Source of the DNA: a virus
Reading direction: 5' to 3' (one strand)
Virus record (IMG/VR): IMGVR_UViG_3300025769_000312
Location: 1 to 38,589 of that record
Length of the DNA: 38,589 bases
The translations under genes and the position numbers were made by a program. Shown here one piece after another: positions 11,999-14,299 of the stretch (position 1 is the first letter of the stretch; each line of letters starts with the position of its first letter). Under the pieces are notes generated by a model. The model was given only the letters and a program-made list of their open reading frames with translations. It searched no databases and was not told the origin of the DNA.

Positions 11999-12184
11999 AT
12001 GCAGAGTGAACCGCTTACGCGGCGCGATGTCTTGCGCCTTGAGGCATTGCGTCTGGCAATTACAAACAGAACGCCAAATTCTGTGACCAAATTCCAAGAA
12101 CTTGCAGAGATGTATTTTACTTGGCTGACTGCTGACGAAGCGCCGAAAAAAAAATTAGGCAGGCCGCCTAAGAATGCTGTATAG
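11999..12184 (+). CDS. Hypothetical protein with AT-hook-like tail, 61 aa
   Basis: A helical N-terminal half (RRDVLRLEALRLAI, KFQELAEMYFTWL) and a C-terminal PKKKLGRPPKNAV. The GRPPK core resembles an AT-hook, a minor-groove DNA-binding motif. The context between scaffold and capsid suggests a head-morphogenesis or DNA-associated role. I do not recognise the family firmly. It begins three bases after the previous stop. Confidence 0.7.
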   Translation: MQSEPLTRRDVLRLEALRLAITNRTPNSVTKFQELAEMYFTWLTADEAPKKKLGRPPKNAV

Positions 12185-12201
12185 AGGAAATAGGATTACT
12201 T

Positions 12202-12323
12202 AGCGGCTTGTCCGCTTTGCCCTAACCGTCGAAAGACCGCTAGGGGCGCGTTAGCCCAAGGATGGGCCTGACATTAGTCAGACTACTCAGCCGACAGAAT
12301 CGATCATCTGTTCTCTGGGAGAA
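12202..12323 (+). ncRNA. Hairpin-tiled leader of the capsid gene
   Basis: Within the 144-base gap before the capsid gene six short stems follow one another: AGCGG/CCGCT (12202-12216); CCCTA/TAGGG (12220-12245) enclosing GTC-GAAA-GAC with a GNRA loop; GCCCA/TGGGC (12254-12267); CTGAC/GTCAG (12268-12281); ACAGA/TCTGT (12294-12311); and TTCTC/GAGAA (12311-12323). The third and fourth abut and could stack. The last contains the GGGAGA ribosome-binding site of the capsid gene, six bases before its ATG, so it could control translation. Alternatively this is an RNA-processing or stability element for the most abundant phage mRNA. Confidence 0.6.
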
Positions 12324-12328
12324 AACTA

Positions 12329-13234
12329 ATGTCTACAGAAGTACCTGTTTCATTTAAACAACAGTATCGAGACAACTTTATTATGTTGTCTCAGCAAAAA
12401 GGTTCGAAGCTTCGCGGCGCAGTTCGCGATGATCCGGATATGCTTGAAGGCAAAGCCGGTTACTTCGACCGCATCGGCGCAACTGCAATGCAGCGGCGCA
12501 CTTCCCGCCACCAGGACACGCCTCTTGTTTCGACTCCGCACAGCCGGCGTCGGCTCACGCTTGAGGATTTTGTCTGGGCCGATCTCATCGACAAAGCCGA
12601 TCGGGCCAAAATGGCGGCAGATCCTGATAGCTCCTACATGACCAACGCGGTCTGGGCTGCTGGTCGTGAATACGACACGGCAATCTACGGAGCGATGGGT
12701 GGTAGCGCATACTCGATGGACGAAGACGACGCGGCGACAGCCGTTGCTTTGCCTTCCGCCCAAAAAGTTGCGGTCAACAACCACACCTACGACGCGGGTT
12801 CCGGCGATGTCGGATTGACCGTGGGCAAGCTTATCGCAGCTCGCGATATCTTGCTTGCAGCGGATGCAGTGGATCCTGACGATACGCTGTTTTGCGTTGC
12901 AAACTCGAAGCAGCTTTCCAATCTGCTCGCTGAAACGGAAGTGACGAGCCGAGATTACAACGATGTCTATGCGTTGAAGACCGGCCAGATCGACACTTTC
13001 ATGGGCTTCAAGTTCATTATGTACAACAACCTCAGCGTAGATACCTCGAGCGATCAGCTCGTCTATTGCTGGCATCCTTCGGCGATCGGACTCGGGATCG
13101 GCATGGATATCGGTGTTGAGATGGATGTGCGGCCTGACAAAAACTACTCGACACAGGTGTTCGTCGACATGTCGATCGGGGCTACCCGCATCGAAGAAGA
13201 GAAAGTTGTCGAAATCGCCTGCGACCCGACCTAA
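12329..13234 (+). CDS. Major capsid protein, 301 aa
   Basis: The sequence fits the podoviral capsid family seen in BPP-1/epsilon15-like phages: N-terminal helix (SFKQQYRDNFIMLSQQKGSKL), RRRLTLEDFVWADLIDKADRA, an Ala/Asp-rich centre, KLIAARDILLAADAVDPDDTLFC and FMGFKFIMYNNL, and a C-terminal GIGMDIGVEMDVRPDKNYSTQVFVDMSIGATRIEEEKVVEI. An HK97-like fold is expected. The GC-rich, regular codon choice is consistent with high expression and leaves the opposite strand open for over 300 codons, which is an artefact. The gene follows a structured leader. Confidence 0.9.
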   Translation: MSTEVPVSFKQQYRDNFIMLSQQKGSKLRGAVRDDPDMLEGKAGYFDRIGATAMQRRTSRHQDTPLVSTPHSRRRLTLEDFVWADLIDKADRAKMAADPDSSYMTNAVWAAGREYDTAIYGAMGGSAYSMDEDDAATAVALPSAQKVAVNNHTYDAGSGDVGLTVGKLIAARDILLAADAVDPDDTLFCVANSKQLSNLLAETEVTSRDYNDVYALKTGQIDTFMGFKFIMYNNLSVDTSSDQLVYCWHPSAIGLGIGMDIGVEMDVRPDKNYSTQVFVDMSIGATRIEEEKVVEIACDPT

Positions 13235-13744: not shown

Positions 13745-14299
13745 ATGCCAAAAGATCCTGCCGAGTTGGTAGGTCAGTACCGGGGCCGGCTCTTAATTAT
13801 GGGGTCGGCCCCTTCTTTTTGGGATGACCTAGAGCGTTACGAAAAGAGCTTTCCAGAACATGACAAAATGGCGATCAACCATGTCGGCGTCCTTTATTTT
13901 GGCAGCTTCCAGCACTGGGCCAGCTGTCACATGGATTCGCCAATCTTTCACCCTCAAAACACTCGGGCCGCTGTTATGAACGAGCAACATGAGGAAATTC
14001 TTTTGCATGGTAAGCGCAACGCGAAAAGCGAGGCTTACGGCTGGAACATCAAAGACTGTGGCACCAGCGCAATGTTTGCCACTGAAGTAGGGCTTCGTCT
14101 TGGGTATGACAAAATCACACTTGCCGGCGTTCCCCTGGATAACTCTGGTTATTTTTATGGCCCGCCTTCGCACTGGAATGACTTTGCCAACAACAAAAAT
14201 CGCGGGCTCTGGGCAATGGCTGCGAAAAGTTGGGAATGGAAAGAACGAGTTACGTCGATGTCTGCGTATACCCGAGAGATTTTAGGAGAGCCACAATGA
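13745..14299 (+). CDS. Putative DUF115/MptE-like or glycosyltransferase-like enzyme, 184 aa
   Basis: The N-terminal LLIMGSAPSFWDDLERYEKSFPEHDKMAIN resembles the nucleotide-binding start (GxGPSxxDD ... vN) of DUF115 / MAF flagellin-glycosylation and sialyltransferase-like proteins. A later TSAMFATEVGLRLGYDKITLAG looks like a second Rossmann-type element found in the same group. It is not a virion gene by sequence yet lies inside the head-tail operon. It might modify a virion protein or host surface glycan. The assignment is by motif only; a purely structural role is not excluded. Its stop overlaps the next ATG. Confidence 0.5.
   Translation: MPKDPAELVGQYRGRLLIMGSAPSFWDDLERYEKSFPEHDKMAINHVGVLYFGSFQHWASCHMDSPIFHPQNTRAAVMNEQHEEILLHGKRNAKSEAYGWNIKDCGTSAMFATEVGLRLGYDKITLAGVPLDNSGYFYGPPSHWNDFANNKNRGLWAMAAKSWEWKERVTSMSAYTREILGEPQ

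Follow-up and report, generated by a model that had tools for sequence, protein, structure and literature searches.

The window, by which we mean the whole stretch of 38,589 nucleotides that was analysed, is a podovirus-like record from a marine phage, in which the genes stand in the order terminase, T7-type portal, protease/scaffold-like gene, a 61-aa ORF, a gap of 144 nt, and the major capsid protein gene (MCP). The earlier note had set this capsid leader against the very short ordinary leaders of the operon, and most of the gaps around it do indeed span no more than a few bases. All closely examined MCP relatives carry a comparably placed leader, which in some of them overlaps the 3' end of the upstream ORF. 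The conserved element of the leader begins at about 12191, which is 5' of the start of 12202 first proposed for it. The features of the locus are as follows.

11999-12184: 61-aa ORF, ending where the non-coding gap begins
12185-12328, + strand: MCP leader, the gap between ORFs 11999-12184 and 12329-13234, holding the whole RNA element
12191-12224, + strand: hairpin P1, first twin motif, UAGG-AUUA-C(UU)AGCGG-CUUGU-CCGCU(UU)G-C-CCUA
12228-12237, + strand: hairpin P2, GUC-GAAA-GAC with a GNRA loop, only 3 bp in the window
12244-12257, + strand: hairpin P3, GGGC-GCGUUA-GCCC with a conserved CGUUA loop, from covariation
12260-12292, + strand: hairpin P4, second twin motif in opposite orientation, GG-A-UGGG-C-CUGAC-AUUA-GUCAG-ACUA-CUCA-G-CC
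12294-12311, + strand: variable hairpin P5, ACAGA...UCUGU, before the Shine-Dalgarno region, from sequence and folding
12315-12321, + strand: Shine-Dalgarno region CUGGGAG of MCP, able to pair with CUCAG of the P4 3' strand
12329-13234, + strand: MCP, Phage_capsid_2 (PF19821; Pfam E 7.1e-82), PHROG 3437 major head protein
13782-13812, + strand: strong terminator-like hairpin with T-run, after the gene following MCP

The 61-aa ORF contains the stretch LAEMYFTW and ends in the basic sequence KKKLGRPPK; small ORFs akin to it lie 5' of the leader in some clades and are missing from others. The terminator-like hairpin falls inside the first codons of an ORF called at 13745, which leaves the true start of this gene uncertain.

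Scans with several MCP queries yielded 324 loci with 185 distinct leaders, which fell into 53 groups with little common sequence. When these leaders were set side by side, the recurring feature was a hairpin broken by four nucleotides opposite one (GG-NNNN-Y / R-N-CC), which occurs once towards the 5' end of the leader and a second time close to the capsid gene, as a rule in reversed orientation. The 4x1 internal loop comes as GUAG/U or AUAA/C, so that A·C takes the place of G·U. Since the wobble pairs G·U and A+·C are isosteric, we read the swap as preservation of a three-dimensional motif. A strict descriptor of the motif matched 45 of the 53 leader representatives, a count that is optimistic in its exact value because the descriptor was written after these sequences had been seen; dinucleotide shuffles gave a mean of 2.8 and a maximum of 6, and control windows gave 0-6, with 0-5 in same-length windows elsewhere at these loci and 6 on the opposite strand of the leader. 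An unconstrained loop survey, a loop-letter test and covariance models do not depend on the descriptor. With the loop-letter rule lifted, two combinations stood out: A..A facing C (A,A,C), with 32 occurrences where shuffles gave 1.05, and G..G facing U (G,G,U), with 26 where they gave 0.6. A relaxed twin descriptor was rejected as a genome-wide finder, being so unspecific that shuffles give equal numbers.

In the window, P4 is a strict match to this proposed family, with the strand ACUA (12282-12285) facing C 12267. P1 has the loop, with the strand AUUA (12195-12198) facing C 12220, and an imperfect inner stem, which is broken by UU/UU and is therefore missed by the strict descriptor. By position and motif it is the homologue of P1 in the relatives L004, L008, L010, L013 and L015; nevertheless, P1 is the least certain part of the element in the window. 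P2 recurs at the same place in relatives, often with a GAAAGA-type loop, and covaries in the A5 group. The stems at the place of P5 differ among relatives, and P5 is thus left outside the defined core.

This picture differs in part from the row of six short stems that had been drawn for 12202-12323. The local hairpins AGCGG-CUUGU-CCGCU (12202-12216), GUC-GAAA-GAC (12228-12237), CUGAC-AUUA-GUCAG (12268-12281) and ACAGA...UCUGU (12294-12311) are indeed present, but three of the drawn stems (CCCUA/UAGGG, GCCC/GGGC and the one that covers the ribosome-binding site) belong to a minimum-energy solution and are not what relatives keep. Covariation favours instead GGGC-GCGUUA-GCCC (12244-12257) and a long interrupted hairpin at 12260-12292, and the signature of the element is the twin internal loop rather than a series of independent short hairpins. 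Nearest-neighbour folding of the window also prefers a fold other than the conserved one (-45.8 vs -33.5 kcal/mol). The folding energy of the leader is moderately better than that of shuffles, with z -1.98 for 12202-12323 and z -3.10 for 12185-12350.

Compensatory base changes in relatives, whose absence the earlier note had named as grounds against its proposal, were found in large number. From 23 leaders of a pelagiphage-like group, RNAalifold recovered P1, P2 and P4 with no preset structure, 8 of the 11 pairs showing changes in both partners. In A4 it likewise recovered P3, where double-sided changes are seen at all 5 pair columns. For the full structure the A5 covariation score was 0.377, against 0.110±0.013 after shuffling and at most 0.148 for slid versions. 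In the window's own group (W, L004, L007, L008, L010, L012, L013, L093, L094, L096, L097), the single MAFFT alignment of P1-P4 (A8) misplaces P1, and scoring was thus limited to P3-P4: the covariation was 0.708 vs 0.245±0.035 shuffled and at most 0.217 slid, 96.5% of the cells were paired, and RNAalifold gave the same two hairpins unprompted.

Covariance models extended these results to leaders on which they had not been trained. Model R1, built from 17 leaders of one group, recovered about 20 untrained groups (E 4e-9 to 0.02), in each case at the MCP leader; when it was run on the complete HTVC010P genome, its single match was again the MCP leader. R1 found no match to the leader of the window. 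Model R2 was built from 7 leaders, excluding W and its nearest relatives L004-L008; on the whole window its sole match was 12239-12293 (E 0.016), which contains P4, and it also reached an alphaproteobacterial contig (E 1.1e-7). Weak R1 matches about 900 nt 5' of MCP in three loci (L019, L028, L033) were attributed to chance, as they lie inside the scaffold gene and have no motif.

The element is also held at a constant place. The distance from the P4 loop to the MCP ATG has a median of 44.5 nt with quartiles of 40-48 (n=42), and shuffled matches are widely spread; compact genomes could account for part of this fixed spacing. Moreover, 44 of 47 leaders have both copies of the loop in one class, G or A, vs 31.4 expected from permutation within GC thirds. 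This agreement is partly a matter of shared ancestry: there are about 8 shifts of class across the capsid tree; among independent pairs in which the second copy differs, 5 of 5 are concordant (p 0.06). The fixed spacing and the class agreement together suggest that one partner may read both copies beside the initiating ribosome. The small upstream YYxW protein was considered as an obligatory partner and rejected, since many clades have the RNA but not this protein.

The last of the drawn stems had been said to hide the capsid ribosome-binding site. For the window this is what is computed, with an accessibility of 0.19 vs 0.33, and pairing probabilities with P4 enforced or not indicate that pairing of the Shine-Dalgarno region with the P4 3' strand and formation of P4 are mutually exclusive. 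The same pairing was computed for L094, L015 and L030, whereas the family as a whole does not show it: mean Shine-Dalgarno accessibility is 0.39 in real leaders vs 0.40 in shuffles. Hiding of the ribosome-binding site as a conserved mechanism was therefore rejected, a simple occlusion switch is not conserved, and we treat the pairing in the window as a local elaboration.

Computationally, then, the stems and the loop covary, the element goes with the MCP gene and keeps a fixed spacing from its start codon, and its two copies are of the same class. We are nearly certain that the leader encodes a real structured RNA, and this RNA very probably acts in cis on capsid expression. Control at the level of translation is mildly favoured over other levels. 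The best explanation, which we hold with about even confidence, is a previously undescribed family of cis-acting RNAs on the MCP messenger that affects translation initiation and in which one partner reads both loops. In the proposed mechanism, a wobble pair, G·U or A+·C, most likely joins the first base of the loop to the single base opposite it, so that three bases bulge out. P4 sits just 5' of the site of the initiating 30S subunit, and the element most likely acts on translation initiation of MCP. A single partner would read the loops of both P1 and P4; it is most plausibly a protein and possibly a virion protein of the same operon, and such reading could tune capsid output to assembly. 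The translational level, the protein nature and identity of the partner, and the sign of the effect are what we infer here rather than observe. That the partner is a phage virion protein is a tentative guess. It is likewise conceivable rather than probable that capsid dosage is under autogenous control at the RNA level in phages of many bacterial groups, with a twin operator in the capsid messenger recognised by the capsid protein itself (HK97 fold, PF19821, in a tailed DNA phage) or by another product of the operon.

Capsid protein is needed in hundreds of copies, and the same operon also makes parts that form a single ring. In the literature searched, there was no account of how this large group of phages sets the ratio of capsid to single-ring parts. 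The earlier reading of the leader as a cis-acting RNA controlling capsid dosage, or as an undescribed RNA family, is supported in part by the covariation, the lack of an Rfam family and the recurrence across 53 groups of MCP leaders; dosage control stays a matter of interpretation, and several of the stems first drawn are not the conserved ones. The conservation of the RNA from HTVC010P-type SAR11 phages to Alteromonas phage ZP6 makes it a concrete and testable element, because phages and hosts are in culture, and the coupled G·U to A·C loop, used twice, is a compact RNA motif to solve.

An element for mRNA processing or stability, in which the hairpins would protect or cleave the 5' part of a capsid-rich messenger with a terminator at its 3' side, is an improbable alternative. 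A terminator-like hairpin follows within 1,200 nt of MCP in 10 of 40 groups, the window included (1.4 expected from shuffles, and 1 over an equal upstream length). Most of these hairpins lie some 465-550 nt beyond the stop codon, and some clades have a promoter just 5' of the RNA. A capsid-rich messenger with ends of its own is therefore likely. However, the long duplex typical of RNase III sites is lacking, and a stabiliser requires neither a twin loop with coupled bases nor a tight distance to the ATG.

The same promoters and terminators bear on a nascent-RNA antiterminator of the HK022 put kind, with RNA polymerase as its target, which we consider still less likely. The put RNA, an antiterminator at early operons of a lambdoid phage, acts on the zinc-binding domain of RNA polymerase and also consists of two stems with bulges (PMC9378689). 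Both put and the capsid-leader RNA are cis-acting phage elements with two bulged stem-loops that can adjoin a promoter: in ZP6 a TTGACA-17-TATAAT promoter lies directly 5' of two twin-type hairpins, good promoters were found in L104, L094, L013 and Skadi, and terminators lie downstream of the element. Nevertheless, a clear promoter is absent in most clades, including the window (9 of 53 at p<=0.05), the HTVC010P genome has the R1 element once and at MCP, and the HK022 genome has no R1 match at E<=2 and descriptor twins only at chance level. Unlike put, the capsid-leader element is tied to MCP, and the constant distance to its ATG is not expected of an antiterminator.

A riboswitch sensing a small molecule would also give a structured leader with a conserved loop, but it is very unlikely here, considering that the invariant bases are few, that one small loop is present in two copies, that neither a terminator nor a Shine-Dalgarno switch is conserved, and that Rfam has no match. 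That the hairpins are a functionless by-product of base composition can practically be dismissed, for although the folding z of 12202-12323 alone is modest (-1.98), this idea is contradicted by covariation, strand specificity, position and the matches of held-out models.

Returning to a cis-acting RNA family on the capsid messenger, we compared it with known systems. In RNA phages such as MS2, the coat-protein operator is a short bulged hairpin that precedes a gene and is read by the capsid protein; that of MS2 has a tetraloop and a single bulged A and lies before the replicase gene. The RNA of the window likewise places a bulged hairpin before a gene, and the letters GGAUUA happen to recur in it, but here the phage is a tailed DNA phage, the gene is that of the capsid, and the 4x1 internal loop is present in two copies, whereas MS2 has a single-copy hairpin with a purine bulge and a tetraloop. 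The letters GGAUUA/ACUA at 12191-12200 and 12275-12290 recall part of the MS2 coat-protein operator in a surrounding structure that differs, and the likeness is probably a coincidence. Rfam 15 had no family at its gathering cut-off in the window or in 15 relatives, and no match at E<=1 in the leaders L248, L334 and L051. The best weak match, freshwater-2 (RF02980), is also of the cis-regulatory type and its match ends at the MCP start; at 18.3 bits vs a cut-off of 49.9 (E 1.8) it was put down to chance. A DNA search of phages and a search of the literature, mostly outside subscription journals, found no earlier description. Judging from Rfam and this literature, the capsid-leader RNA is apparently undescribed.

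By motif or model, the element was found in the abundant SAR11 phage HTVC010P, in Skadi-3, Baldr, ct3Et533, ctVRi840 and Alteromonas phage ZP6, the MCP of which is 25% identical. Among MCP relatives in bacterial genome records the strict rule found it in 27 of 60, and inspection by eye, allowing for a C-G variant, added further ones; metagenome bins make up many of these records, and their organism names are unreliable as hosts. It was absent among the MCP relatives Vibrio 1.138.O, Escherichia phage APEC, TPWB-05, YeP5, SI2 and a rumen alphaproteobacterial clade. Eight alphaproteobacterial loci, several from rumen (L377, L378, L379, L381, L382, L383, L387, L397), are without the RNA and have a terminator-like hairpin with a T-run immediately 5' of the capsid gene.

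Capsid relatives also occur in the cultured Dongia mobilis CGMCC 1.7660 (L368), Ensifer adhaerens ST2 (L389) and Phyllobacterium onerii IY22 (L365), where they are probably prophages; the Dongia leader matches R1 (E 0.0026). In six other loci (L043, L047, L051, L073, L081, L218) the RNA element lies within the 3' half of a small YYxW-type ORF, and in this clade the same bases may serve both protein and RNA. In GenBank OQ414636 (L326) and OQ414635 (L333), the pelagiphages Baldr and Hodr bear each other's names in their locus tags.
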